DNA of 30,730 nucleotides from a virus. The translations under genes and the position numbers were made by a program. Every line of letters begins with the position of its first letter. Position 1 is the first letter of the stretch. The notes below the pieces were generated by a model. It saw only the letters and a list, made by a program, of their open reading frames with translations, ran no database searches and was not told the origin of the DNA. Of this stretch, positions 3,041 through 22,373 are shown piece after piece. The stretch covers positions 1-30,730 of the IMG/VR virus record IMGVR_UViG_3300025133_000428; one strand, 5' to 3'.

Positions 3041-5098
3041 TCAGATGTCCGCAATTTCACAGACTCCAGAAGTGCAGCTGAGCTCTTGCGTACCTTTGGT
3101 ATTATCTTCTAATTCATATTTAGACAACTCTGACCAATCGAATACTGGAAAGGATTCAATCATATTTAAATATTCTTCTGCATCAATTTCTTCATATGGT
3201 GCTTGTTGATATGTGTGCTCAGTGACTGGCAAGAAGCTTACTCCAGAACAATCGTCAAAATACTTATATAACCAAGCTCCAACTTCCATAAACTCTTCAT
3301 CGTCTTTATAATATACTGTAATAGATGGTTTATGTTCACACCAATGATCGTAGTATATTTTCCATAATCTTAATTGCTCTAATGCACCAACATCTTCTAC
3401 AAGAACAGCATCTTGTGGTGCTGCAATCGGAAAACTAAATATCGCTATTTCAGATGAAGTAATATCATCTTCATAGGGAATCTTGTCCATCATGAATTGA
3501 GTCAATGGGTCTTTCTTATCACCACGAACTCTTCGTACATAATGTTGAGCGAAGCGAGGATGTATACCTGAAGCAGAATCACATAATTGGGAAACTGTCC
3601 CAGATGGCTTAACGCATGTAATAGCAACTGATTGGGGTATCTTCAATTTCTTTGCCCATTCTTTATTTGTATCAATTGCCACTTGTTTCAATTCTTCTAA
3701 TATTTTAGCTAAGTCAATATTCTTATCAGTACCATTTAACATTGGGTGATCCATGATCCCAGTCAATGATACACCAAGCAATCTTTCTTCTCTAGCATTT
3801 TCTGACCAAATGGGACGAAGATATTTAAAGTTAGTAAGAGTAGATTGCAGAGTTCCAATTATTGTAGCTCTCTTAACCTTATCAGCTAGTACTTCAAATG
3901 TATCATCTGCTTTAATAATTACTTCTGATAAATTACAGAAGCCCTGCGGCCTCAGAATTATTTCAGCGCATGGGTTAGTTCCAAAATCTCTTGTAGCATC
4001 TCTGCGGCCATTCTCCGCAGCCTTCTTTTGAGATGCTACACGAGAAAACATTCCCCGTTCTCCTGATTTAGATTCATATAGAGCTTGCCATTCTTTTAAG
4101 AAGAATGCGAAGTCTGGCTTTTCTGTATATGCTGCTGAGTTATTCGCTAATGCTCTTTGTGGCTCTGTTGCCCACCAATTACCTTTCTTTGCATCGCGGA
4201 TTCTTGCGTCTGTTGGGTTTGATAATGAAATAAGAGCAGAGCGCCTTACACCACCGACTACCACTATGTTAGCGATCTTGCAACATATGTCGTGGCACTC
4301 TACTGATGTCAGCCTTCTTCCGTCAGCATTTATAAAAACATCTCTGCAAAATTCAAATAGCTCAGCAAGTGGCTCTGGGCCCGAAGCCCTGCCGCCGAAA
4401 GTTTTTAGCTTCTCGCCGGCTTTGCGTAGGTGTGACATGTCCCATCTGATATCAAAATTGCCATTATATAATTCAAATATTAATATCCGCAATGATGATG
4501 CCCATCCGTATTTAGTATCAGCAATAATAATAGTATTCTCTTTCTTATCAATAACTGATATATCTTCTCTGTCAACGCCTGGATAGTTCTTATTGTTAGG
4601 GATATAGCCTCTTCTATTGAGTGGCTTTCCTATTTTTGGTAGGTTTACTATGTATTGTCGTTCAACTGAAAAACCAGATCCGGTACCACACATTAAAATA
4701 TACATAATTTCATCAAAATCCACAGGTTTCTTCAAATGGACGGTGACTGGTTCATCTAACTTATCGTGCTCCAATTGAATAGTTTCGCCTGCTCCTGATA
4801 CAGTAGTATATGAACAATTGTATCCAGCTACTTCATCCCGCTCTAATGCTTTGCCTGCTGTCATAGTTGCTCGCATGGAACCAACCAATTCTAAATTCCT
4901 TTGCCCATCAAAACACCATTTAATAATATCTTTATGTTTAGGGAATCGCTTAGTCCAAAAATTTATAACCCTATCTACTACTTCATCCCAATTTTCCCTA
5001 CGTCCCCTTTCTTCATCCCATCTACAATATCTCGATAGTGCGATGAATTCCGAATAGGACGGATTTGATGTATTTTCAAATGTTGTCATTTGTGTCAT
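3041..5098 (-). CDS. nrdJ: adenosylcobalamin-dependent ribonucleoside-triphosphate reductase (class II)
   Basis: This enzyme reduces ribonucleotides to deoxyribonucleotides using a radical generated from coenzyme B12, so it needs no oxygen or separate radical subunit. The 685 residues carry the features of the monomeric class II type. These are Cys95 in GYNCSYTT (redox pair), the radical-site segment NPCAEI (Cys377, Glu379), Cys388 in GFCNLSEV, and a C-terminal CTSGVC (Cys675/Cys680) that recharges the active site. GTGSGFSVER and KPSGTVS are also typical. AAGGA precedes the first ATG; a second ATG three codons on is possible. It lies in the nucleotide-metabolism part of the window and depends on the host's cobalamin supply. 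Confidence 0.93.
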   Translation of the reverse strand: MTQMTTFENTSNPSYSEFIALSRYCRWDEERGRRENWDEVVDRVINFWTKRFPKHKDIIKWCFDGQRNLELVGSMRATMTAGKALERDEVAGYNCSYTTVSGAGETIQLEHDKLDEPVTVHLKKPVDFDEIMYILMCGTGSGFSVERQYIVNLPKIGKPLNRRGYIPNNKNYPGVDREDISVIDKKENTIIIADTKYGWASSLRILIFELYNGNFDIRWDMSHLRKAGEKLKTFGGRASGPEPLAELFEFCRDVFINADGRRLTSVECHDICCKIANIVVVGGVRRSALISLSNPTDARIRDAKKGNWWATEPQRALANNSAAYTEKPDFAFFLKEWQALYESKSGERGMFSRVASQKKAAENGRRDATRDFGTNPCAEIILRPQGFCNLSEVIIKADDTFEVLADKVKRATIIGTLQSTLTNFKYLRPIWSENAREERLLGVSLTGIMDHPMLNGTDKNIDLAKILEELKQVAIDTNKEWAKKLKIPQSVAITCVKPSGTVSQLCDSASGIHPRFAQHYVRRVRGDKKDPLTQFMMDKIPYEDDITSSEIAIFSFPIAAPQDAVLVEDVGALEQLRLWKIYYDHWCEHKPSITVYYKDDEEFMEVGAWLYKYFDDCSGVSFLPVTEHTYQQAPYEEIDAEEYLNMIESFPVFDWSELSKYELEDNTKGTQELSCTSGVCEIADI

Positions 5099-8705: not shown

Positions 8706-9257
8706 TTAATTTAAATCTGATTTATAAACATATGCGCCTGAATCAGTCTCATATCGTGTATCACCATTCTTTTGGTCAATTGATATAATCTTACCAACAC
8801 GCTTTTTATTCTTTTTTGTATATGTGAGCTTATCGCCTACCTTATATTCAATTGCTTCCATGACATAAACTTCTTTGCTACCGAGCTTCTTCATTGCTTC
8901 TTTAGCAGCCGCTTTTAATGTACCTGATACGAACACTATTTCGTCATCGCTTGGATCGCCCATTCTTTTTGTACTAAATGCCCAATTACCAGAACCTTTG
9001 GCTTTCTTGCCATGGACTCTTAAGTATCTATCGTGATTAATGCCTACCTTATATTCTTGCAGCGATTCTACTTTGATGGGCTTGCCGACAGGTTTGCCAG
9101 TCGATGTGACTTTTAGTAATGTTTTTGCACCCTGTGCCTTTGCCCATTTCATTGCTGCCTTTTGGTCTTTGTGTTTCTCTCGTACAGCTTCGCCATCTAC
9201 TAGTATTTCCCAAAAACCCTGAAATGCTTCTGCTATAAATTGTTTAAATTGTTTCAT
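8706..9257 (-). CDS. putative capsid-targeted protein, C-terminal SH3-like domain
   Basis: The protein has 183 residues. MKQFKQFIAEAFQG fits the capsid-targeting peptide with cleavage after IAE. The middle contains two lysine/alanine-rich helices (KAAMKWAKAQGAK and LKAAAKEAMKKLG). Residues from about 138 (YKVGDKLTYTKKNKKRVGKII) form a likely SH3-like barrel. It overlaps the upstream gene by ATGA. A small, basic, head-packaged protein is the best guess; no enzymatic motif is seen. Confidence 0.82.
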   Translation of the reverse strand: MKQFKQFIAEAFQGFWEILVDGEAVREKHKDQKAAMKWAKAQGAKTLLKVTSTGKPVGKPIKVESLQEYKVGINHDRYLRVHGKKAKGSGNWAFSTKRMGDPSDDEIVFVSGTLKAAAKEAMKKLGSKEVYVMEAIEYKVGDKLTYTKKNKKRVGKIISIDQKNGDTRYETDSGAYVYKSDLN

Positions 9258-9838
9258 AAACCCATGCCCCGTTTTACTATTTTGAATACTTTGCTACCCA
9301 TACTTTTTAATTTTGTGGGCAATCCTTTTATAAATAATTCTTCTTCATCTAATGATACTAATTGTCTCAATAATGATGCTGACATACCCTCTACACCATG
9401 TTTCTTTATGTATGCTTTTAGTTCATCTGCAGACATTGCTTTTAAGTCCGGGCCATCTTCATCCCTATCACCTGATGATACAACTTCAAATTTATCAAAG
9501 TCCAATGAGAAATTACCATCCGCCTTAACATATTTGCCGAGGTTCTTTTTGAACTCTGGAACTCTATCTGAGCCAGCGATAAGAGTAAATTCTTTTACAC
9601 CTTCTTCTGACATCTGACCAGCAATTTGAAATAATGTTTTTAATGATGCATCAGTAGATATTTCAAGATAAGGAAATGCTTTCTTTAATAGCATAGTCTT
9701 ATCTTTGAATGACAGAGGATTCTTCTTTGGGTCTTGTGACGAAGAAGTAAATAGAATTGGAAGTGCTCCACGTTTCTTAGCTTCTTTAGCAAGAGTTTTC
9801 GCAAGCTTCTCGTGACCAATAGTCAATGGATTGAAACG
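9254..9838 (-). CDS. nucleotidyltransferase (NMN adenylyltransferase-like), 3' part after the bypass site
   Basis: From the proposed landing codon CGT (9838-9836) the frame reads RFNPLTIGHEKLAKTLAKEAKK and onward for 195 codons. FNPxTxGH is the ATP-binding motif I of the cytidylyltransferase-like superfamily (NMN adenylyltransferase/NadR type). LIAGSDRVPEF and the late SASLLRQ segment are also typical. The first strand of the fold (VVVSFG) is not in this frame; it lies upstream in another frame at 9841-9930. Starting independently at the GTG at 9844 would give an enzyme without its first strand. A joined product of about 222 residues would match the family. Such an enzyme would act in NAD synthesis. 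Confidence 0.82.
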   Translation of the reverse strand, partial: RFNPLTIGHEKLAKTLAKEAKKRGALPILFTSSSQDPKKNPLSFKDKTMLLKKAFPYLEISTDASLKTLFQIAGQMSEEGVKEFTLIAGSDRVPEFKKNLGKYVKADGNFSLDFDKFEVVSSGDRDEDGPDLKAMSADELKAYIKKHGVEGMSASLLRQLVSLDEEELFIKGLPTKLKSMGSKVFKIVKRGMGL

Positions 9839-9846
9839 AGTCACCG
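9836..9846 (-). promoter_or_regulatory. putative translational bypass site 1 (CGG TGA CT CGT)
   Basis: Take-off codon CGG (9846-9844, Arg) is followed by stop TGA (9843-9841), two bases CT, and the synonymous codon CGT (9838-9836). Joining the two Arg codons gives VVVSFGR-FNPLTIGH, the exact family motif. The 3' arm of an 11-bp stem ends at the last base of CGG. The arrangement matches that at 19742-19752. Confidence 0.6.
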
Positions 9847-9930
9847 TCCAAAAGATACAACAACGCGAGTATTTCCGCGGGCTATACTTTTGGACGGGCC
9901 CTCCTTTATGTAGTTTATAAAGTTTAACAC
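9841..9930 (-). CDS. 5' part of the nucleotidyltransferase with its own capsid-targeting-like N-terminus
   Basis: A 29-codon frame begins at GTG 9930, overlapping the end of the endonuclease gene, with AAGGA nine bases upstream. It reads (M)LNFINYIKEG, then PSKSIARGN, then TRVVVSFGR and a TGA stop. The end is exactly the first strand of the nucleotidyltransferase fold, up to the Arg of GRFNP. The start resembles a capsid-targeting peptide ending IKE. It duplicates, with different codons, the stranded 5' fragment at 10735-10797 (KIARG as GCA-AGA-GGT there, GCC-CGC-GGA here). The extra residues GPSK encode the 5' arm of the hairpin at 9844-9897. Confidence 0.75.
   Translation of the reverse strand: MLNFINYIKEGPSKSIARGNTRVVVSFGR
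9844..9897 (-). promoter_or_regulatory. hairpin abutting bypass site 1
   Basis: CCGTCCAAAAG (9897-9887, minus strand) pairs perfectly with CTTTTGGACGG (9854-9844). Inside the 32-base loop CGCG pairs with CGCG. The stem ends on the take-off codon. It lies immediately after AAAGGAGG, so it could also act by bringing that ribosome site close to the GTG at 9844. Confidence 0.7.
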
Positions 9931-10694
9931 TTAGTTAATTCCTTACAATTATTAAAATGCCATCGTTGCATAGCACCATTAGCACCAATTTTTGAGCAAT
10001 GTGGACATTTCAATTGTTTATGTTTCTTACCATAAAATGGATTATTTTTACCAGACATCTTTTTAGATTTTAATCTGGTAGACTTAATTCCATTTTCCGT
10101 TTTATAAAATTCTTTTAGTGTATTGGAGCGTTTAATATTTTCTTGTATTATTTGTTCTGTTGTTTTATTTTCAAATCTTTTTTTTGCTTCATTACTTAAA
10201 TGTTTTTTAAGTTCTGGGTTATCCATTGCTGCTTTAGTTCCAGCAGATATATTCTTTTTGTGTTCTTCTGTTCTCTCATTTCCATAATTCCAATGTTTCT
10301 CTGCGGACCTATTTTTTGACATTGATAATTTTGCTTTATTTGTATGAGTCTTTCCATACATTCCATTTTTCTTGCCAGATATAGCTTTGCTTATTTTAGC
10401 ATTTACTATTGGACCAAGGTTGCCTCCCTGTCCGCCGGATGCTAGATTATAATACATTTTATCTAATACTGCATTATGTTCTTTAATAAAATGTCTCTCT
10501 GCAATATCTAATTCATCTTTAGTATCATATACACCCAGTGTAGTTCTTCTAAAATTATTCTTTCCATATTTATCTATTGCAAGTTTAAGTATATCACCTG
10601 AGCCTAAATAATTAGTATCTTCCGTTCCAGTTTTTTGGCCAATATATTTTTTTTCATTTATTAAATTTTCTGTAATATAAATAAATCCGTACAT
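9924..10694 (-). CDS. GIY-YIG homing endonuclease 1
   Basis: The 256-residue protein has an N-terminal GIY-YIG nuclease domain (YGFIYITENLINEKKYIGQ; catalytic-type Arg in NNFRRTTLG; Glu in DIAERHFI). NUMOD3-like DNA-binding repeats follow (SGKKNGMYGKTHTNKAK; SGKNNPFYGKKHK). It ends in a zinc finger CPHCSKIGANGAMQRWHFNNC. The same finger ends the second endonuclease at 19868-20689. It sits between a stranded 20-codon 5' fragment and the repaired body of the nucleotidyltransferase gene. A late promoter and an RBS-masking hairpin lie just upstream, as in T4 intron endonucleases. AAGGG precedes the ATG. Confidence 0.92.
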   Translation of the reverse strand: MYGFIYITENLINEKKYIGQKTGTEDTNYLGSGDILKLAIDKYGKNNFRRTTLGVYDTKDELDIAERHFIKEHNAVLDKMYYNLASGGQGGNLGPIVNAKISKAISGKKNGMYGKTHTNKAKLSMSKNRSAEKHWNYGNERTEEHKKNISAGTKAAMDNPELKKHLSNEAKKRFENKTTEQIIQENIKRSNTLKEFYKTENGIKSTRLKSKKMSGKNNPFYGKKHKQLKCPHCSKIGANGAMQRWHFNNCKELTKC

Positions 10695-10726
10695 CTTTAT
10701 ACCCTTTCACCAATGGTTATAAAGAT
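10693..10726 (-). promoter_or_regulatory. hairpin masking the ribosome site of endonuclease 1
   Basis: ATCTTTATA (10726-10718, minus strand) pairs perfectly with TATAAAGAT (10701-10693), which includes AT of the start codon. Two further C-G pairs flank the loop that holds AAGGG. Transcripts reading in from upstream would fold and hide the start. A late transcript starting near 10719 would lack most of the 5' arm. Confidence 0.72.
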
Positions 10727-10733
10727 ATTTATA
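10726..10733 (-). promoter_or_regulatory. T4-type late promoter of endonuclease 1
   Basis: TATAAATA on the minus strand lies 32 bases before the ATG. The expected start site falls inside the 5' arm of the masking hairpin. The flanking AATTATAAATAT is shared with the second endonuclease's promoter. Confidence 0.75.
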
Positions 10734-10734
10734 A

Positions 10735-10797
10735 TTATGATTTTTTCTGACCTCTTGCTATTTTGGCTTCTGTAACAAAATTAAGAAATGATTTCAT
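10735..10797 (-). pseudogene. stranded 5' end of the nucleotidyltransferase gene
   Basis: A 20-codon frame from ATG 10797 (TAATG overlap with the upstream gene) reads MKSFLNFVTEAKIARG and stops after QKKS. It has the capsid-targeting peptide with cleavage expected after VTE, followed by KIARG. The same KIARG segment recurs, recoded, ahead of VVVSFGR at 9841-9930. It is most simply the original start of the gene, cut off when the endonuclease cassette inserted. It may still be translated as a short peptide. Confidence 0.75.
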
Positions 10798-11476: not shown

Positions 11477-12706
11477 TTAACGATTACCAAATGATTGTGC
11501 TGCATTGAAGTTATTTCTACTAAAGGTTAGCCTGTCGACTAATTTTACAGCGCCTCCTGTTAGAACATCGATCATGACGAAGCCCTCAGGCGTTGTAACT
11601 TCATACCCATCTGCCTTCTTGATAAATGTTGCCATTCCCTCAATCTTCTCTAACTGAGTTACTAACATTTCTTTCGCGTCAATCATTGCTGATTGAATAG
11701 TATATAACAATATAAAGTCTCTTTCTGCTCTTTTGAGTTTCTTTACTAATTCTTGATGATTAGCAGATTTCATATCCTTTGACTTTTGAGTCTTTACTTT
11801 ATCTATTTCTTTCTGTGCTCTTGTATCTAGCCAATTGTAAAAATCTTTCATGTGTGCTTTAGGATTAGTGATACGCTGGCCTACTCTAATTCTAGCATTT
11901 ACATGAGTTTGTACTAATAATTTCATTTGACTAGATTTAGCAAGTCCATCAAGGAACTTGAGATTTAATTTCTTTACTAAACCTTCTATCTTTTTAATCT
12001 TTGTATTATATGCATTCGTTTCTCTAGCAGTCCACAGAGCATTATCTGATATACCAGGTATTGCTGCATCCCGTACCCATACGTTCTTTGATTTTTTTAA
12101 AGAATTAATGTTGGCGCCAAAACTAGCAGACATAGACTCAAGCTGAGAGCCAGAGTAAGTAGTGTGAAAAACAATACCAAGCTTAGCAGAAGAAATTTCT
12201 TTATCCAAATCAGACCCAGCAGGAATTGCATACGCAATTGTATTGGGTTGAAATACTGAGTATTTTTGTCCATTTATTGTTTTGCTCTTGACGTCACCAC
12301 TAGAGAACATCATATCGCCCTGCAGGATAGTTTTTATTCCTAGTGGCTTAAGATGCTTAAGAGCAACTTTTAATTTATCTGCAAGGACTGGTGCGTGACC
12401 ATGGTTTTCGTCGATATCAGCATCAGTGTAATTTATCTTTGGAACTTTATTGAAAATTGATTTTGTGCCAACGAAGAATTGCTTTGTCTCTGGGTGCTCT
12501 CCGCAAAACACAGCAGGTGCGCCGTCCCACTTTAGAGTTAGTGAAGTATCATAACCTTCGCCGCCTTCCAGTTTTTCGCCAACTGATTTCAGCATACGTA
12601 GTGTTACTTTGATACCCTCTGAACCAAGCTCGAGGATATTCTCCTCAAGGTGAGTTAAATGCTTATTAATAGGTGCTTCTGTCAAAAACTGTAAAAATGA
12701 TTTCAT
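11477..12706 (-). CDS. capsid-targeted ligase/nucleotidyltransferase-fold protein (DUF6267-like)
   Basis: The protein has 409 residues. MKSFLQFLTEAP is a clear capsid-targeting peptide with cleavage after LTE. The body shows the signature order of covalent nucleotidyltransferases (DNA/RNA ligases). It has LKWDGAPAVF (motif I, KxDG, with Lys as the candidate nucleotide attachment site), KTILQGDMMFS in the middle, TPEGFVMID (motif IV-like) and AVKLVDR (motif V-like) near the end. The family is common in marine T4-like phages as a protein of unknown function. The ligase-like reading is my inference from these motifs; a packaged repair ligase is one possibility. Confidence 0.85.
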   Translation of the reverse strand: MKSFLQFLTEAPINKHLTHLEENILELGSEGIKVTLRMLKSVGEKLEGGEGYDTSLTLKWDGAPAVFCGEHPETKQFFVGTKSIFNKVPKINYTDADIDENHGHAPVLADKLKVALKHLKPLGIKTILQGDMMFSSGDVKSKTINGQKYSVFQPNTIAYAIPAGSDLDKEISSAKLGIVFHTTYSGSQLESMSASFGANINSLKKSKNVWVRDAAIPGISDNALWTARETNAYNTKIKKIEGLVKKLNLKFLDGLAKSSQMKLLVQTHVNARIRVGQRITNPKAHMKDFYNWLDTRAQKEIDKVKTQKSKDMKSANHQELVKKLKRAERDFILLYTIQSAMIDAKEMLVTQLEKIEGMATFIKKADGYEVTTPEGFVMIDVLTGGAVKLVDRLTFSRNNFNAAQSFGNR

Positions 12707-12709
12707 AAG

Positions 12710-13303
12710 TTATCCTGGCCATGCCATCTGTGTTCCAGCATCATAAGGTTGGGTTTGCCAGCCATGCTTCTTTAATAGTTTCATCAATACTGGATGATTA
12801 TATATTCTGCTACCATCGTAATATTCTTCGCTACCTCTAAACCAAATACCACCAGCACCTTGTGATTTATTTATAAAGAAATCTTCAGCAGGTACTGCAA
12901 CTGCATCTGGTAATTCTTTGTTTATTATTGCAATAAGCTTCTTAGCAGGCGTTGACCTTGCTTCATTTGCTGGTTTTAATCCTATTTCAATTTCTAGTTT
13001 TTCTTGTTCATCATCAAAGATTTCTTCTTGTGACTTGCCATATTTGTGGCTACCCTTGCCAGTTGCAAGAATATCACCGCCATTATATTGCTCGGACAAT
13101 TGACCAAGTGCATCTATAATAGCATCTTCGACTTCTTCAGGAGATACTTTATGCTTCTTTGCTATGTTCTGAATGTTATAACTAGTTTTAAGTACCTTCT
13201 GGACATACTCGTCATATTTTCCACCCTTAGCACTTTTCTTAATTTGCTTTATCATTGCTGCAGTAAGTTTATTCTCAGCTATATGTTGTTTAAAAGTTTT
13301 CAT
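12710..13303 (-). CDS. putative capsid-targeted protein
   Basis: ATG 13303 is chosen over the upstream frame start because AAGG lies six bases before it and the protein then begins MKTFKQHIAENKL, a capsid-targeting peptide (cleavage after IAE). The 197-residue body has a helical region with KKHKVSPEEVEDAIIDAL, an acidic helix, and a C-terminal domain with EDFFINKSQGAGGIWFRGSEEYYDG that looks like a small alpha/beta fold. The function is unknown. Confidence 0.83.
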   Translation of the reverse strand: MKTFKQHIAENKLTAAMIKQIKKSAKGGKYDEYVQKVLKTSYNIQNIAKKHKVSPEEVEDAIIDALGQLSEQYNGGDILATGKGSHKYGKSQEEIFDDEQEKLEIEIGLKPANEARSTPAKKLIAIINKELPDAVAVPAEDFFINKSQGAGGIWFRGSEEYYDGSRIYNHPVLMKLLKKHGWQTQPYDAGTQMAWPG

Positions 13304-13305
13304 AT

Positions 13306-13650
13306 TTACCTTATGTAACAATTTAGCTCAAATGGAGTTCCGCTTGTTCCACGATTATATACTTGTATTTGTAATGCCTTGCGTTGCTTCTTATCACCCT
13401 TATATAAATCTAAAGAATGACTAACAGTCTTTCCATTCTTTGGTCTGCCTGGGCCCATGCCGACTTTATCAAATCTATTATCATCATTAGTCTGATAGCC
13501 ATTCTTTGATGCAAAGTTTACAGCTTCTTGAATTGCTGAAGTGTAAGAATCATGATATAAAACATAATCATTTTTGCCTTCTGGAATTGAAGAAGTTTTC
13601 CCTTCAGCAAGTTCTTTAGCAATTCCAAGTATTGTTATTAACTTAGCCAT
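13306..13650 (-). CDS. conserved phage protein with late-operon context
   Basis: The 114 residues show YEVYH-type phrases: DYVLYHDSYTSAIQEAVNFASKNGY, VGMGPGRPKNGKTVSHSLDLYKG and LQIQVYNRGTSGTPFELNCYIR. I recall similar proteins in the packaged-protein clusters of marine T4-like phages. There is no clear targeting peptide (MAKLITILGIAKELAEG is at most a weak analogue ending LAE). Function unknown. Confidence 0.78.
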   Translation of the reverse strand: MAKLITILGIAKELAEGKTSSIPEGKNDYVLYHDSYTSAIQEAVNFASKNGYQTNDDNRFDKVGMGPGRPKNGKTVSHSLDLYKGDKKQRKALQIQVYNRGTSGTPFELNCYIR

Positions 13651-13658
13651 TATTTTTC

Positions 13659-14111
13659 CTATTTTCTTTTTAAATTAAAATATGCAGTGTCGCGTAAATT
13701 ATTATCAAAATTAATTAATTTATATCCGAATTTGCTTGCCTTTGAACTTATTAATCGTTTATATAATTTTACTCTTGACGCATCATCTGTATCAGTTTTA
13801 GATGCTGCAATGTCTATTTCTTCTGGTTTTTGCTTCTTCACAAAATCACCAATCATAGCAATAACAGTAGCAAATACTTTTATTTCATCACCATCGCCAG
13901 ATGCATCATATTTCCATAGACCAACATCGGTTCTGGCAAATGAAACATCCCAAACGTCTTGATCTAACAAGTTTGCTGTAACTTCAAAACCATTCTTGCC
14001 AATTTGAAAGTTACCGCGCCAGAAAGAATCATCTGACTCTTTCCATTTATATTTAGCAGGCTTATCAAAAACCTCTATAATATATTTATTGTACTGGTTG
14101 AACGTTTTCAT
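13659..14111 (-). CDS. putative capsid-targeted protein, conserved in T4-like phages
   Basis: The 150 residues begin MKTFNQYNKYIIEVFD (targeting-like, cleavage after IIE). The body alternates beta strands (YKWKESDDSFWRGNFQIG; VWDVSFARTD) with the helical segment EIKVFATVIAMIGDFVKKQKPEEI. A conserved basic stretch follows (RVKLYKRLISSKASKFGYKL). This profile matches a virion-associated family of unknown function in marine T4-like phages. It overlaps the small gene upstream by 26 bases. Confidence 0.82.
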   Translation of the reverse strand: MKTFNQYNKYIIEVFDKPAKYKWKESDDSFWRGNFQIGKNGFEVTANLLDQDVWDVSFARTDVGLWKYDASGDGDEIKVFATVIAMIGDFVKKQKPEEIDIAASKTDTDDASRVKLYKRLISSKASKFGYKLINFDNNLRDTAYFNLKRK

Positions 14112-14236: not shown

Positions 14237-15757
14237 TTATGCTCCATACAATAATTGGCCCAAATCTGATTTTTCATCTACAGATACCGAGCCAATAGAT
14301 ATTCCCAAAAATGACATTAAACCATGTAACATCTTTGAACCAAGTTTTTTAATAAAGTTAAATGCTTCTGTAATTCTTTGCCATACTACTTGTAGTATTT
14401 TAATTGCAGAATCTTTAATACCACCAGCAGCCCTTTTAGCCTTTTGGTAAAATGCTTTCAATTTACCAAATTCATCTAATTGCTCTACCCCTTCAGATAA
14501 TACATGTCTACCTAATGAACACTTAGAAAGCTCTTCTTCTAATATATCATTTAATGTAACAAATTCTGAGTCATATCTAATTGGACAATTATTACTTTCA
14601 AATACAGATTTATAATTTGCTGGTATCTTTGTCTTTTTAGTTCTCATTGATAGATATGGTTTTGAGCCGCCTCCACCAGTTTTAAATGATACATAAAAGC
14701 TATTTGATCTTGCTAGAACCTCAGCATCTTTTGCTGAGTGCATAGTTAAATGTTTTGTTATTTTTCCTTTAGCAGGATCAAATTCCAATATTTGATTTGC
14801 TACTGCCCAATTACCTTTGCCAAATTTGCTTTCACCAGTTGCTGCTTCGAAAGCAAAATGAGATTTAAATTTAATATTTTGAAAGAACTTATCAAATTCA
14901 GCATTTAATTCTTTAGCATTCAATTGCAAGCCTTCCATCTGTGCTATATCTGCTTCGTCCTGTTTAGATAATTTCTTTCCACTATCTCTTAATGCTTGTA
15001 GCGAACTAATGGTACCTTTACGTTGCATCTCACCCATCTTGTCTTGCATTAAAGATACTATCTTTTCTACTGATTTTGGATTCATTGTTGACATTGATAT
15101 TAGAGCAGCATTAAATGTAGCTTCAGCCTCAGGTGCTTTTGCAGACATCAACTGCGATCCGCCAGCTTTCTTTAATGATATTTGATGTTTTCCAGATAAC
15201 ATATCTGTTTTTGGTGTAGCATTTTTACCACCCCAAGATTTCCATTCTTGTGTAAGAGATGTTGATAAATTACCAGTTTGATTCATTGTAGAAATATTTA
15301 GTGCTTTACCTACTAATTTTCCCATTTTGATTGCTTCGTCGCTATAATTGCCCCAGAATCGTTCGATTCTATCCCATTCTGGTGTACCTTCCGACTTATC
15401 AACACCAATCAAACCAACAGTGATTAATGCTTCCCAATCTTCACCGCTAGGACCAACAGCACCGCCTGCCTTTTTAAAATTACCGCCAAAGCTACCTTCG
15501 GAATTTGATGCAATTTTAAATGTTTTACCATCTTGGCCTTTTAGTGTCTTTTCAAAAACGTCCTTATCTTTGCTAAAACCCCTAGAAACTAAATCAGGCT
15601 CGCCTTCTTTATTTGTTACAACTTCCAACACATCACCGGATTTCCAGCCACTTAATGACTGTAATCCAGCAAAGTCTTTTAATATAAATAATGCGCCTGG
15701 TGGGTACTTAGATTGTAATATACTTGCTTCAGCGAGGAAAGCATTAAAACTCTTCAT
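14237..15757 (-). CDS. large capsid-targeted protein with possible PD-(D/E)XK-like nuclease core
   Basis: The protein has 506 residues. MKSFNAFLAEAS fits the capsid-targeting peptide exactly (cleavage after LAE). After a beta-rich N-terminal domain (ALFILKDFAGLQSLSGWKSGD) comes EDWEALITVGLIG (about 105-117). Then TPKTDMLSGKHQISLKKAGGSQLMS (about 180-204) recalls the D...(x)xK arrangement of restriction-endonuclease-like folds. The C-terminal 70 residues are amphipathic and hydrophobic (IKILQVVWQRITEAFNFIKKLG; MLHGLMSFLGISIGSVSV), possibly membrane-active. It is the first gene of the late-type operon, 31 bases behind a TATAAATA. The nuclease idea is tentative. Confidence 0.83.
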   Translation of the reverse strand: MKSFNAFLAEASILQSKYPPGALFILKDFAGLQSLSGWKSGDVLEVVTNKEGEPDLVSRGFSKDKDVFEKTLKGQDGKTFKIASNSEGSFGGNFKKAGGAVGPSGEDWEALITVGLIGVDKSEGTPEWDRIERFWGNYSDEAIKMGKLVGKALNISTMNQTGNLSTSLTQEWKSWGGKNATPKTDMLSGKHQISLKKAGGSQLMSAKAPEAEATFNAALISMSTMNPKSVEKIVSLMQDKMGEMQRKGTISSLQALRDSGKKLSKQDEADIAQMEGLQLNAKELNAEFDKFFQNIKFKSHFAFEAATGESKFGKGNWAVANQILEFDPAKGKITKHLTMHSAKDAEVLARSNSFYVSFKTGGGGSKPYLSMRTKKTKIPANYKSVFESNNCPIRYDSEFVTLNDILEEELSKCSLGRHVLSEGVEQLDEFGKLKAFYQKAKRAAGGIKDSAIKILQVVWQRITEAFNFIKKLGSKMLHGLMSFLGISIGSVSVDEKSDLGQLLYGA

Positions 15758-18793: not shown

Positions 18794-19744
18794 TTAAAAA
18801 AAGTCTGATAGTGAGTTGGTTTCTTCAGCTTTCCACCCTATTACACCTGTCAATGACTTCAACGGAGTTAGAAAATGTTTCTCAAACATAAGATCGTAGT
18901 CTATATATTTGTCTAATTCATATCCAATTGGTAATTCATTAATGAATCCCATAACTGGATAATGTACCTGGTTGGGCATTTTCAAAAACACAATTTTTAC
19001 TTTTGCCCCATTTTTAATATCATTTGTTTTACTAAAGTGATTATATAATAATGCTGCCTTTGAATTGTATGGTGTTCCTGATTTAAAGATAGTCTTACTA
19101 TTATAATATTTAGAAACATATGATACGGATTTTGTTTGTGCTATAACTTTATAATCAGACTTGTGATATAGTTCTCTAAATTCGTTAACAAATTTAATTA
19201 AATTATCATTATCTGCTTCTTGTAAAATTATACGAATTGCTTCTTTCAATGCAACTCTACATATTTCTGGAAAATCTTTCTTTACTGTTTCCAAACCCAT
19301 GATTTTTAGTTTGGGTTCTTTATATCGTTCGCCCTCTTTGTCATACATATTAATAGCATATCGCTTCTTTGCCGTCCAGATTCCAGTAGAGCCTATAACC
19401 TCTCTATCCATTATCATTAATTGTTCACGGCAACCAAGATATTCTTTTAATCTTTGGTACGAAGGAGTAATAACATGTTGCTCTACATGTTTCATTGACT
19501 TATCAAGAAAATCTGTAATGTCATGATTCGATTTACCAGGACCGCAAATCTTATTTGCAAATTCTTCCATGTTCAAATATACAGAATCCGTATCAATATA
19601 TATAACGTATTCAACATTCTCAGTTAATAATATTTTATTAAAGTATATATCTAAATCTTTAGCAATCCACTTAATTGCTAATTGTCCTGATAGAGTAATT
19701 GCTGTTGCTAATTTCAAATCAAAGAATCTAAAATATTGATTTCC
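18794..19744 (-). CDS. 43: DNA polymerase gp43, C-terminal part after the bypass site
   Basis: From the proposed landing codon GGA (19744-19742) the frame reads GNQYFRFFDLKLATAITLSGQ and continues for 316 further codons. This is the direct continuation of the family-B motif NSxYGALG(N). It contains palm motif C as YVIYIDTDSVYLN and the thumb region. No ribosome site or good start codon lies at its beginning; the only early candidate is a TTG at 19717, which would delete the conserved residues. That favours translation as part of the frame at 19747-19881. The stop overlaps the leader of the next gene. Confidence 0.88.
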   Translation of the reverse strand, partial: GNQYFRFFDLKLATAITLSGQLAIKWIAKDLDIYFNKILLTENVEYVIYIDTDSVYLNMEEFANKICGPGKSNHDITDFLDKSMKHVEQHVITPSYQRLKEYLGCREQLMIMDREVIGSTGIWTAKKRYAINMYDKEGERYKEPKLKIMGLETVKKDFPEICRVALKEAIRIILQEADNDNLIKFVNEFRELYHKSDYKVIAQTKSVSYVSKYYNSKTIFKSGTPYNSKAALLYNHFSKTNDIKNGAKVKIVFLKMPNQVHYPVMGFINELPIGYELDKYIDYDLMFEKHFLTPLKSLTGVIGWKAEETNSLSDFF

Positions 19745-19752
19745 AATTAACC
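19742..19752 (-). promoter_or_regulatory. putative translational bypass site 2 (GGT TAA TT GGA)
   Basis: Take-off codon GGT (19752-19750, Gly) is followed by stop TAA (19749-19747), two bases TT, and the synonymous codon GGA (19744-19742). Joining the two Gly codons gives NSAYGALG-NQYF, the uninterrupted polymerase motif. The 3' arm of a 14-bp stem ends on the first base of GGT. The geometry is that of the site at 9836-9846. Confidence 0.62.
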
Positions 19753-19881
19753 AAGTGCGCCGTACGCAGAATTCAACAGGATTTTTAGTACCATTTGTCT
19801 GGTGTGATTCAGACTGGCATCCTGTTTTAACTTTGTACGGAGCACTTGCAGTTCTCCTGTAGTTAAATCATTTAAGTTCAT
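19747..19881 (-). CDS. 43: DNA polymerase gp43, middle segment carrying motif B
   Basis: A 44-codon frame starts at ATG 19881, inside the last codons of the endonuclease gene, and ends with a stop right after NSAYGALG. It begins MNLNDLTTGELQVL and carries RQMVLKILLNSAYGALG, the family-B motif B with the invariant Lys, Asn, Tyr and Gly that contact the incoming nucleotide. On its own it would be a useless 44-residue peptide. Joined across the bypass site to the downstream frame it gives a 359-residue polymerase half. The ribosome site is weak (AGGA 13 bases away), so coupling to the endonuclease gene is likely. Confidence 0.8.
   Translation of the reverse strand: MNLNDLTTGELQVLRTKLKQDASLNHTRQMVLKILLNSAYGALG
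19752..19848 (-). promoter_or_regulatory. nested hairpin abutting bypass site 2
   Basis: CAAGTGCTCCGTAC (19848-19835, minus strand) pairs with GTACGGCGCACTTG (19765-19752), 13 of 14 positions. Inside it AACAGGAT (19826-19819) pairs with ATCCTGTT (19782-19775). Inside that GTCTG pairs with CAGAC (19814-19810 region with 19801-19797). Three stacked stems span almost the whole coding segment before the take-off codon. Confidence 0.72.
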
Positions 19882-20689
19882 TTTGTATTTTATTCCTACA
19901 ATTATCGAAGTGCCATCTTTTTAAATTATGAAGGACTCCAGTTGTTTTACAATGTGGACATTCACCTTGTATTTGTTTTCTTTCTTTCCATAACTCCTTT
20001 TGTGCAATCGAATGTTTAATTTTTGATTCTTTACTGTGTTTACACCCTAATGCACCTTTAACTGCATCTGGATTTAATTTAATATATTCTTTCTGCTGTT
20101 CGCTTTTCTTTTTTCTTTTTTCTTCAGTCCAACCATCTTTTATTTTTTGTTTTTCTTTGTTTGACAGCGTAATACCCTTTCGTGCGCTATCATTGGTTTT
20201 GTAATATTCTTTTAATGATTCTGCTCTCTGTATATTTGTTTCTATACTATCTTTCATTCCCCTTCGTGCATCTGAACCCGCCTTTGCATTTTTCTGTGCA
20301 GCAATTAAATTATCGCCAGATCTTTTTCTTCCTTTCGTTTTATCACTTACCTTCTTTGCAACAATTGGATTATGCATACAATTCGGTAAACCTAAAGAAT
20401 TTACATACTCCCAACTACCTTCTCCACCTAGGTTTTTATTATAGTGCATATCATTAGCAATGAATTCTTTATTTACTATTTCTGCTTCTTTATTATATGC
20501 AGAATTTTTATCAGCATATTCAAATAATATTTCACGTTCAAAATTTTCAATTCCATATTTTTTCTTTGCATTACTATAGTGTGAACCACCAGTCCCTATA
20601 TAATTGTCATTTTTTATATCATTGGATTTATGGACACCAATATAAATTTTATTATTAATTGTGTTAGTAACTTTATAAACATAGTACAT
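19868..20689 (-). CDS. GIY-YIG homing endonuclease 2, inserted in gene 43
   Basis: The 273-residue protein has a GIY-YIG domain at its start (YYVYKVTNTINNKIYIGVHKS; GIENFEREILFEY). A long lysine-rich DNA-binding middle follows (SDKTKGRKRSGDN; CKHSKESKIKHS). It ends in the zinc finger CPHCKTTGVLHNLKRWHFDNC, shared with endonuclease 1. It separates the exonuclease/palm half of gp43 from the motif B half. AAAGGAG precedes the ATG and a late promoter lies 23 bases upstream. Split polymerase genes with endonucleases between the halves have been reported in T4-type phages. Confidence 0.92.
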   Translation of the reverse strand: MYYVYKVTNTINNKIYIGVHKSNDIKNDNYIGTGGSHYSNAKKKYGIENFEREILFEYADKNSAYNKEAEIVNKEFIANDMHYNKNLGGEGSWEYVNSLGLPNCMHNPIVAKKVSDKTKGRKRSGDNLIAAQKNAKAGSDARRGMKDSIETNIQRAESLKEYYKTNDSARKGITLSNKEKQKIKDGWTEEKRKKKSEQQKEYIKLNPDAVKGALGCKHSKESKIKHSIAQKELWKERKQIQGECPHCKTTGVLHNLKRWHFDNCRNKIQNELK

Positions 20690-20711
20690 TTTATTTCTCC
20701 TTTATACTAAA

Positions 20712-20719
20712 TATTTATA
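20712..20719 (-). promoter_or_regulatory. T4-type late promoter of endonuclease 2
   Basis: TATAAATA on the minus strand is set in AATTATAAATAT, which is also found at endonuclease 1. Its position just after the stop of the upstream gp43 part suggests that the promoter travels with the endonuclease cassette. No RBS-masking hairpin is visible here. Confidence 0.7.
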
Positions 20720-20746
20720 ATTTCTATTCTTTCCATTTTATGATAA

Positions 20747-22249
20747 TTATAATGCTCCACGGCTTTTCAATTCTGCTTCAACATCAAGCAATGTAATCTT
20801 TGCATTCATCATTTTATCTTTAGCGGCCTTTCTCTTGTTATATATTTCTTCCATCAACTCTGACATGAAGGATTGTTTTTCTGTAGAAAATGATACACCA
20901 TTTGCGGCATAAGAAGTTTTTCCATCCAATGCAACTGTTTCATTCAATAGAGGCTCTACATGGTCTCCATAATTATTAGTATCCATAATAGTATCAGGGC
21001 CGATGTTCCATTGTCTGATGATAGAAGGATATAGTGATGCCAGGTCAAATGATACTACCCATTTATATAAACCGGGCTTAGGTGTTTTAACGTATGCTCC
21101 TGAAAATGATTCAGATTTATTTGATGAACGACCGAATGGCACAATTATATTAGTTTTAAGTAAATGAGAATATATTATAGAGTCCCATGTTTTTACTGGA
21201 CTAAAAGTATCTTCATAATTAATCATTGAAAAATATGCTATATCAAATACAATACCAAGCAGATTTAGCTTTTCATCGAGTCGTTTAATTAACTCAACAT
21301 CTTTAATATTATAATCAATAAATTTCTGATAATCAGTTTTATATAATCCGTGCAGACCTTTTGCTGCATCATAATCTAATTTCTTCTCACCCAAAATAAC
21401 ATATGATATATGGTCTAGTGTGTAAAATTCTTGATTTTCAAAAGTATGCTTTTGGAATAACTCCATATAATCCAATTGAGCAATTCCGTATATATTATGT
21501 TTTTCTCGTGGATTACCATACGAATCTTTACCTTGCCGAACTTTTAATATATTCCATGGCGACAATTTCTTAACTTTATCTTCACCAAGAAGAGCAGTCA
21601 TTCTATTGATCATATAAGGAATATCAAACCCTTCAGAGTTCCAGCCAGATACTACATGGGGATAGTCTTCAGCCCAGTCATTTATAAATGCTTGAAGCAA
21701 TTCAGATTCATTAGCAAAATGAGAATACTTTACTTCTCTTACAAAGTGTTGTATGGATTCATCTGAGTTTTCAGGATTCCATAATCCAACATCTCTTGCG
21801 TCTAACCCGTATGTATGATAGACATTACTAACAGTATCATACCAAGTGATAGCATTAATTGGATGCTTAGCTTCCTCAGGCTTCGGGAACTCATCTGGTG
21901 AGAATACTTCAATATCAATAATTGCAGTTTTAATTTTACTTGTATCATACTTTATATCTTTATAATTTTGTTCAAGGAATTGGAAACTATAATTATCCAT
22001 TCCGTATATTTTAAAACCATCTACATTTGAATAAGTATCTGCAAACTCTCTTGCGTCTCTTATACTTTCAAAGCCTTTCCTTTCTAACGGATTGCCATGA
22101 ATACTATGGTATTTAGGATTTGTATTTTGTGTAGGTGTATATAAAGTAGGTTTAAATTTAGTTTTATAACTATGGGTGGAACCATCTTCATTAATCTCAC
22201 GGATTAATAGGGTGTTGCCATAAGGTATTACTGATGTGTAAAATGTCAT
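20747..22249 (-). CDS. 43: DNA polymerase gp43, N-terminal part
   Basis: This is the family-B replicative polymerase, exonuclease and first palm segment. ATG 22249 is preferred (GAGG upstream; MTFYTSVIPYGNTLLIRE is the usual start of marine T4-like polymerases) over the in-frame ATG at 22291. The 500 residues contain exonuclease motifs AIIDIEVFS, SGWNSEGFDIPYMINR and YNIKDVELIKR, and palm motif A SFDLASLYPSIIRQWNI. The frame stops after KSRGAL, where the endonuclease cassette begins. Motifs B and C are in the downstream pieces. The two polypeptides would have to assemble into one enzyme. Confidence 0.93.
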   Translation of the reverse strand: MTFYTSVIPYGNTLLIREINEDGSTHSYKTKFKPTLYTPTQNTNPKYHSIHGNPLERKGFESIRDAREFADTYSNVDGFKIYGMDNYSFQFLEQNYKDIKYDTSKIKTAIIDIEVFSPDEFPKPEEAKHPINAITWYDTVSNVYHTYGLDARDVGLWNPENSDESIQHFVREVKYSHFANESELLQAFINDWAEDYPHVVSGWNSEGFDIPYMINRMTALLGEDKVKKLSPWNILKVRQGKDSYGNPREKHNIYGIAQLDYMELFQKHTFENQEFYTLDHISYVILGEKKLDYDAAKGLHGLYKTDYQKFIDYNIKDVELIKRLDEKLNLLGIVFDIAYFSMINYEDTFSPVKTWDSIIYSHLLKTNIIVPFGRSSNKSESFSGAYVKTPKPGLYKWVVSFDLASLYPSIIRQWNIGPDTIMDTNNYGDHVEPLLNETVALDGKTSYAANGVSFSTEKQSFMSELMEEIYNKRKAAKDKMMNAKITLLDVEAELKSRGAL

Positions 22250-22267
22250 TATATATTTTTCCTCAGG

Positions 22268-22281
22268 TGCCGTCCCTGGCA
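22268..22281 (-). promoter_or_regulatory. small hairpin upstream of the gp43 ribosome site
   Basis: TGCC AGGGAC GGCA on the minus strand is a 4-bp stem immediately before GAGG of gp43. T4 gp43 represses its own translation by binding a hairpin in this position, so this is a candidate operator. The stem is short and the likeness is positional only. Confidence 0.3.
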
Positions 22282-22373
22282 AGTTAATCATTTACGATTA
22301 TTATTCCTATGAATTGTCAACTTTAATCTTTTCTTTTTCATTGAGTATTTGTTCAATAATACTTTTCGCATTT

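Follow-up and report, generated by a model that had tools for sequence, protein, structure and literature searches.

The question raised by this locus is how a single nucleotidyltransferase could be made from a phage gene whose motif, VVVSFGR joined to FNPLTIGH, is interrupted by 8 extra bases. The window, by which is meant the whole 30,730-nt stretch of marine phage DNA that was analyzed (IMG/VR record IMGVR_UViG_3300025133_000428, positions 1-30,730), carries this break on its minus strand as CGG-TGA-CT-CGT (site 1), as an earlier note on the same DNA had read it, and the identical 8 bases are present in a contig from a second assembly (L002) that has 3 differences from the window in 8,886 bp. 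Within 9930 to 9836 (minus strand), the 5' frame has a GTG start and is open to the site, as the note had claimed, running for 29 codons and ending GTT GTT GTA TCT TTT GGA CGG; it constitutes ORF1 (MLNFINYIKEGPSKSIARGNTRVVVSFGR and its stop, 9841-9930, minus), the new 5' end of the gene, whose GTG is accompanied by AAGGA (anti-SD energy −6.1). In the junction (9836-9846, minus), the take-off codon CGG (9846-9844) is followed by the stop TGA (9843-9841), CT, and the landing codon CGT (9838-9836), after which the sequence continues TTC AAT CCA TTG ACT ATT GGT CAC and is open to 9254. A PHROG cytidyltransferase match (1e-37) and alignment identify the 3' part, which begins (R)FNPLTIGH (9254-9838, minus), as a NadD/NMNAT-like nucleotidyltransferase. 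The original start of the gene is orphaned at 10735-10797 (minus; MKSFLNFVTEAKIARGQKKS and a stop), with an N terminus that resembles those of intact homologues, such as MKSFVQFLKE in the homologue L017. The homing endonuclease that the earlier note placed beside the break is also there (endonuclease 1, GIY-YIG with NUMOD3; 9924-10694, minus; Pfam NUMOD3 1.6e-12 and SegE_GIY-YIG 5e-7, PHROG 314 7e-35). A hop from CGG to CGT would, as that note proposed, restore the protein exactly, an outcome found for just 0.7% of random 8-nt insertions; its pairing of two arginine codons stands for the residue but not for the codons, which differ, and no tRNA gene that might account for them was detected in the window.

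Among the matches listed, the motif is contiguous in 136 of 137 distinct homologues that have RxNPxTxGH, the exception being the window (its twin contig was merged as a duplicate), and in those 136 the preceding strand is joined in frame to RxNPxTxGH; the earlier note had suggested looking for an uninterrupted gene in relatives without the endonuclease, and homologues that have none are contiguous. The best intact syntenic homologue among the matches listed is L017 (51-56% identity to the window nucleotidyltransferase), and genome_contigs holds no closer relative. Structures were predicted for the intact L017 homologue and for the 196-aa 3' part, in place of the joined protein. The predicted L017 fold (pLDDT 93.5) resembles those of NadD-type adenylyltransferases, and its β-1 segment (residues 17-23) is the portion that is absent from the 3' frame of the window. 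Both a NadD/NMNAT-like fold and the (F)GRFNPxTxGH motif can be recognized, the motif being whole only with the frames joined. A 17-residue insertion (about LKAMSADELKAYIKKHG) that is absent from the aligned homologues precedes the conserved GMSAS in the nucleotidyltransferase (9254-9844, minus). Several proteins of this neighborhood (8706-9257, 10735-10797, 11477-12706, 12710-13321, 13659-14111, and 14237-15757; all minus) begin with a leader of the type MK(S/T/Q)F, in many cases with EA near its end. These leaders resemble those that target the internal head proteins of T4 to the capsid, and the nucleotidyltransferase may be packaged.

The earlier note also described a perfect 11-bp hairpin that ends on CGG. 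Its arms (9897-9887 and 9854-9844, minus) are as described, the 3' arm of the hairpin (9844-9897, minus) finishing at the final base of the take-off codon, but its size was understated: in full, it is predicted to contain about 22 pairs (11+6+5, with small bulges) at −31.7 kcal/mol for 70 nt (z −5.3), and nowhere else in the window, on either strand, do 70 nt fold as stably. When the in-frame context was recoded synonymously at phage codon usage, 0 of 5000 recodings were as low (z −6.1). Across 135 homologues, the corresponding region has a median of −10.6 and comes no lower than −22.0. It should be noted that, the window being AT-rich, perfect 11-bp inverted repeats occur in it about as often as in shuffles (2 versus a mean of about 1.8), so the repeat by itself was dropped as a signal, and the significance of the hairpin rests on its total stability, its position, and its recurrence. 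The other perfect 11-bp repeat belongs to a fold within the ribonucleotide reductase gene (3976-4060, −28.3 kcal/mol) that ranks second in stability in the window. No further copy of the site 1 hairpin was found in phages by blastn, and a search of viral_contigs gave the twin only. A Shine-Dalgarno sequence, AAGGAGG (9900-9906, minus), is located 2 nt ahead of the hairpin and is its single occurrence in the window; the 9-mer starting at 9907 (−12.1 kcal/mol) is the top anti-SD match of the minus strand. GGAGG is depleted over both strands (5 observed versus 23 expected), as if internal Shine-Dalgarno sequences were avoided in the window.

A similar break is present in a second gene of the same window. 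A second GIY-YIG endonuclease divides the DNA polymerase gene (gene 43; 18794-22291, minus), an essential gene of T4-like phages, which is then broken between YGALG and NQYFRFFD by GGT-TAA-TT-GGA (site 2). The N-terminal part (20747-22291, minus) matches PHROG 262 positions 3-489 (1e-165). Between endonuclease 2 and the polymerase C-part is a 44-codon frame, ORF1 of site 2 (MNLNDLTTGELQVLRTKLKQDASLNHTRQMVLKILLNSAYGALG and its stop; 19747-19881, minus), which covers polymerase profile positions 497-529 in the twin contig. The 3' part (18794-19744, minus; PHROG 262 positions 538-851, 1e-101 for 18794-19717) starts with GNQYFRFFDLKLA, read in a different frame from MNLNDLTTGELQVLRTKLKQDASLNHTRQMVLKILLNSAYGALG, and the junction coincides with the polymerase motif YGALG-N. 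An AGGAG Shine-Dalgarno sequence (19854-19858, minus) is 5 nt ahead of a predicted hairpin (19752-19848, minus) whose 5' arm (19848-19835) pairs with a 3' arm (19765-19752) that ends at the first base of the take-off codon. In the junction (19742-19752, minus), GGT (19752-19750), TAA (19749-19747), TT, and GGA (19744-19742) reproduce the features of site 1: a stop flush with the take-off codon, a 5-nt gap, and a synonymous landing codon. None of 3000 synonymous recodings gave a fold as low (z −6.4), and the three polymerase profile pieces abut (3-517, 497-529, and 527-852). The site 2 insert is also carried by L287, the same phage in another assembly (99.96% over 13.5 kb); with site 1 in L002 and site 2 in L287, which are separate contigs, assembly error is ruled out as the source of the inserts.

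Five loci were obtained when viral_contigs was scanned for a polymerase motif interrupted by a stop plus two bases. Besides L287, one of these is a real divergent phage (L290); the other three (L288, L289, and L291) were judged by translation to be chance matches, and the 18 stretches with the pattern in genome_contigs included none with polymerase context. In L290, GGT-TAA-CT-GGT is present at the same codon as site 2, at the end of the frame MSEDLTQLSMEALQERRRQVSNDVAKFKNFQLSRKILLNSAYGALG, and here the take-off and landing codons are the same. The polymerase C-parts of L290 and the window phage are 44.6% identical, and the insert, geometry, and stem are all retained. A GGAGG is located 4 nt ahead of the stem, which reaches as far as base 2 of the take-off codon. 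Compared with synonymous recodings, the stem of L290 has only a weak advantage (z −1.7, 163 of 3000 as low). When its lower part is aligned with that of site 2, 13 of 14 pairs hold in each phage, with one failing position each, and two pairs are altered on both sides with pairing kept. The polymerase profile pieces abut in this phage also (4-498, 476-528, and 527-853). The protein that splits its gene 43 (L290:281-1060, plus) is of another kind than endonuclease 2: it has weak matches to helix-turn-helix and DUF559/REase_MTES_1575 domains and no relatives in the phage collection; it may be an undescribed homing endonuclease.

The three sites have an observed layout in common: a Shine-Dalgarno sequence, 2-5 nt, a long hairpin that ends inside the take-off codon, a stop directly after that codon (TGA, TAA, and TAA), two bases, and a synonymous landing codon, identical to the first in L290 (GGT/GGT) and synonymous only at site 1 (CGG/CGT) and site 2 (GGT/GGA). 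The inserts, CGGTGACT, GGTTAATT, and GGTTAACT, all fit SGKTRAYT; at each site two frames would join into one conserved protein that is unbroken in relatives, and homologues without the endonuclease are contiguous at these motifs. With the hairpin folded, the distance from the Shine-Dalgarno sequence to the landing codon would be 7, 12, and 10 nt in site 1, site 2, and L290, respectively. The hairpins at all three are predicted folds, assessed by the synonymous-recoding tests given above. Site 2, the Shine-Dalgarno sequence ahead of the hairpin, and the shared 8-mer pattern are additions to what the earlier note contained. In a scan of all loci collected (3.7 Mb over both strands) for a stop and a synonymous in-frame landing codon at gaps of 4-50, a filter for a Shine-Dalgarno sequence and stem kept 3 of 418 candidates at gap 5, which are these three sites, and 0 of about 9,900 candidates at the other gap lengths; unfiltered candidates numbered hundreds at each length. 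However, the filter was shaped after the sites already seen, and the contrast between gap lengths is therefore the only independent control. The same scan kept no site like site 1 near the relatives of endonuclease 1 in viral contigs, and none was seen by inspection. A slightly looser scan of the whole L290 record and the twin contigs gave no new true site; its weak long-gap matches at one place in a bacterial contig (L312) did not amount to one.

Programmed translational bypass of 5 nt is considered the most likely explanation of these breaks, with a probability of roughly 0.7, a judgment based on sequence evidence in the absence of protein data. Site 1 alone could have been a dead gene and would have left this reading unlikely; it becomes the best explanation because two further sites, in gene 43 of the window and in the polymerase of a divergent phage, share the geometry, and to that extent the five-base bypass of the T4 gene 60 type put forward by the earlier note is supported. 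The hopping itself, the order of its steps, and the roles of the hairpin and Shine-Dalgarno sequence are inferred. In the proposed scheme, two endonuclease insertions would each have given the downstream half of a gene a new short 5' frame and placed 8 extra bases in the motif that is most conserved there. The ribosome would read ORF1 through the hairpin and halt once the take-off codon (Arg or Gly) occupies the P site and the stop the A site. The peptidyl-tRNA would then detach, and the hairpin, re-forming behind the ribosome, would pull the mRNA and block re-pairing at the take-off codon, thereby driving a short forward slide, by analogy with T4 gene 60. The tRNA would re-pair 8 bases downstream on the synonymous codon, where the Shine-Dalgarno sequence, about 7-12 nt away once the hairpin has folded, may retain the ribosome. 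As the third base differs at sites 1 and 2, the same tRNA probably lands with a wobble mismatch. Standing against bypass are this mismatch, the weak L290 stem, the lack of a take-off stem-loop and of a KKYK-like signal as in gene 60, the shaping of the scan filter on the sites, and the absence of any peptide, ribosome-profiling, or reporter data; moreover, the window sites belong to a single phage and those in the polymerase could have a common ancestor, in which case the independent origins would number two rather than three.

One rival is that the genes are dead or dying, their frames having been broken by endonuclease insertion or by a template-switch mutation at a quasi-palindrome, with no full-length protein made. 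Gene damage through endonuclease insertion is plausible, and the site 1 insert sits within a 21-nt quasi-palindrome (17 of 21 matching); as sequences of this kind are hotspots for mutation, T4 rIIB being among the cases in which this was first noted (PMC7202029), a mutational origin was a serious rival. Nevertheless, the insert agrees with the other arm of the palindrome at only about half of its bases, the same break geometry recurs twice, in the polymerase gene of this phage and in that of a phage with a 45%-identical polymerase, and the polymerase otherwise matches its profile end to end, whereas a dead gene would not retain insert, stem, and open frames across such divergence; this reading is regarded as unlikely. 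Separate initiation, in which the hairpin would set the Shine-Dalgarno sequence beside a start codon, or reinitiation at a GTGA overlap, so that the enzyme is made either shortened or as separate pieces that assemble, draws its support from site 1, where a GTG immediately 3' of the hairpin overlaps the stop. It also has precedents in T4 genes 38 and 25, where hairpins bring the Shine-Dalgarno sequence closer to the start, 22 nt becoming 5 and 27 nt becoming 11 (PMC3014915), and in the split NrdA of phage Aeh1 and split gp43 of phage 25, which function as separate pieces (PMC2988022). It is very unlikely all the same: at site 1 the product would be without strand β-1, which the contiguous homologues retain, and at site 2 and in L290 there is no start codon just 3' of the hairpin and no ATG, GTG, or TTG that opens the landing frame before the motif, so that separate initiation or reinitiation cannot restore the polymerase.

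Two further readings would join the frames by other means. Removal of the 8 bases from the mRNA, whether left over from intron splicing or achieved through cleavage and ligation at the hairpin, is suggested by a group I intron near the position of the polymerase insert in Aeromonas phages and Escherichia phage G2285, but no group I intron or other Rfam RNA was found in the window or at the L290 locus (the known phages do match RF00028), eight bases are too few for a self-splicing intron, and splicing would leave unexplained a stop flush with a matched codon pair; this reading, too, is very unlikely. A minus-one frameshift at the stop would also join the frames, reading SFGR-VTR-FNP at site 1 and ALG-LIG-NQY at site 2, yet it is given the least credence of all, there being no slippery heptamer and poor re-pairing of the P-site tRNA one base back, and the three additional residues would land in near-invariant catalytic motifs.

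For programmed bypass, the accompanying endonucleases suggest a possible origin of the insert. Endonuclease 2 (GIY-YIG with CPHC...RWHFDNC; 19868-20689, minus) is 29% identical to endonuclease 1, and its best matches in phages (38-43% identity) are endonucleases that lie within the gene 43 of Aeromonas phages; full-length relatives of endonuclease 1 in viral contigs are 30-36% identical to it. Both window endonucleases have a GIY-YIG domain with a NUMOD or zinc-finger part, but the GIY-YIG domain matches are weak and cleavage is inferred. T4 late promoters have the sequence TATAAATA (PMC3014915), and matching promoter-like octamers are located about 39 nt upstream of endonuclease 1 (10726-10733, minus) and upstream of endonuclease 2 (20712-20719, minus); 16 copies are present in the window versus 5.9 expected. 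In the Aeromonas phages and Escherichia phage G2285, where relatives of endonuclease 2 are located in gene 43, the C-part of that gene has a short first exon and is interrupted at YGAL-G by a group I intron (RF00028), no more than one or two bases from where the polymerase insert lies; by rotation, the 8-mer of site 2 and that of L290 can be placed at the intron position. For the gene 43 of phage G2285 (L292, 916-4717), in which both a GIY-YIG endonuclease and a group I intron are present, the annotation reads "unable to determine intron/exon boundaries." The 8-base insert probably shields the gene from the endonuclease, an inference from the expectation that an insert at the endonuclease target would prevent cutting, and in other phages the group I intron may give similar protection at this polymerase position; the gap of T4 gene 60 has likewise been explained as preventing endonuclease cutting (PMC5009743). 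A settlement between endonuclease parasite and host is suggested, in which one gene position holds a spliced intron in some phages and a skipped 8-base insert in others. Whether the sites represent a portable class of "translational intron," consisting of a Shine-Dalgarno sequence, a hairpin ending in the take-off codon, and an SGKTRAYT insert, that originates or moves together with homing endonucleases from more than one family, blocks their cutting, and is skipped by the ribosome rather than spliced, is a matter on which the evidence is evenly balanced.

If bypass is correct, an element that recurs in two genes, including a replicative polymerase, makes a class out of an oddity; comparison across sites would reveal which parts matter, and short reporters become possible. 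Frame-broken phage genes beside endonucleases, now labeled as pseudogenes or errors, would then merit rechecking.

In the sources cited here, T4 gene 60 is the sole established case of bypassing in phages, and a review of T4 asks whether there are others (PMC3014915; also PMC5009743). The present case is most likely bypassing akin to that of gene 60 but with a different architecture, extended to a second gene and a second phage, although this likeness is read from nucleotides alone. Gene 60 has a weak Shine-Dalgarno sequence 6 nt before the landing codon and a 5' stem-loop that is thought to pull the mRNA (PMC5009743, PMC11194080). Its gap, next to mobA, is 50 nt and contains a take-off stem-loop, whereas the gap here is 5 nt, in which such a structure cannot form; the 5' hairpin is longer than that of gene 60 and ends inside the take-off codon, the Shine-Dalgarno sequence is ahead of the hairpin, and different genes, several sites, and only partly matched codons are involved. 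A nascent-peptide signal resembling the KKYK of gene 60 was not seen by inspection in the three ORF1 peptides, which does not exclude another signal. The junction of 43A and 43B in phage 44RR was considered as a model and rejected, since there the hairpin occupies the space between two cistrons, with an ordinary Shine-Dalgarno sequence and ATG after it, a different arrangement. Synthetic stop-hops and the mitochondrial inserts of Magnusiomyces capitatus are alike in being short hops over a stop or insert between matched codons, and in these mitochondria the landing codons are sometimes imperfectly matched (PMC5009743), but they are synthetic or mitochondrial and have neither a tie to endonucleases nor the shared Shine-Dalgarno-hairpin layout. 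The initiation sites of T4 genes 38 and 25 similarly bring a Shine-Dalgarno sequence, a hairpin, and a decoding site to a functional distance (PMC3014915), but they initiate proteins at AUG, whereas two of the three present sites are without a start codon. A parallel in gene and position is provided by Aeromonas phages 25, phiAS4, Aes508, and Aes120 and by G2285, which have a related endonuclease in gene 43, a short first exon of 43B, and an interruption at the same YGAL-G position as site 2; in those phages a group I intron of roughly 200-330 nt breaks the gene, whereas in the window the intron is absent and an 8-base insert is found in its place.
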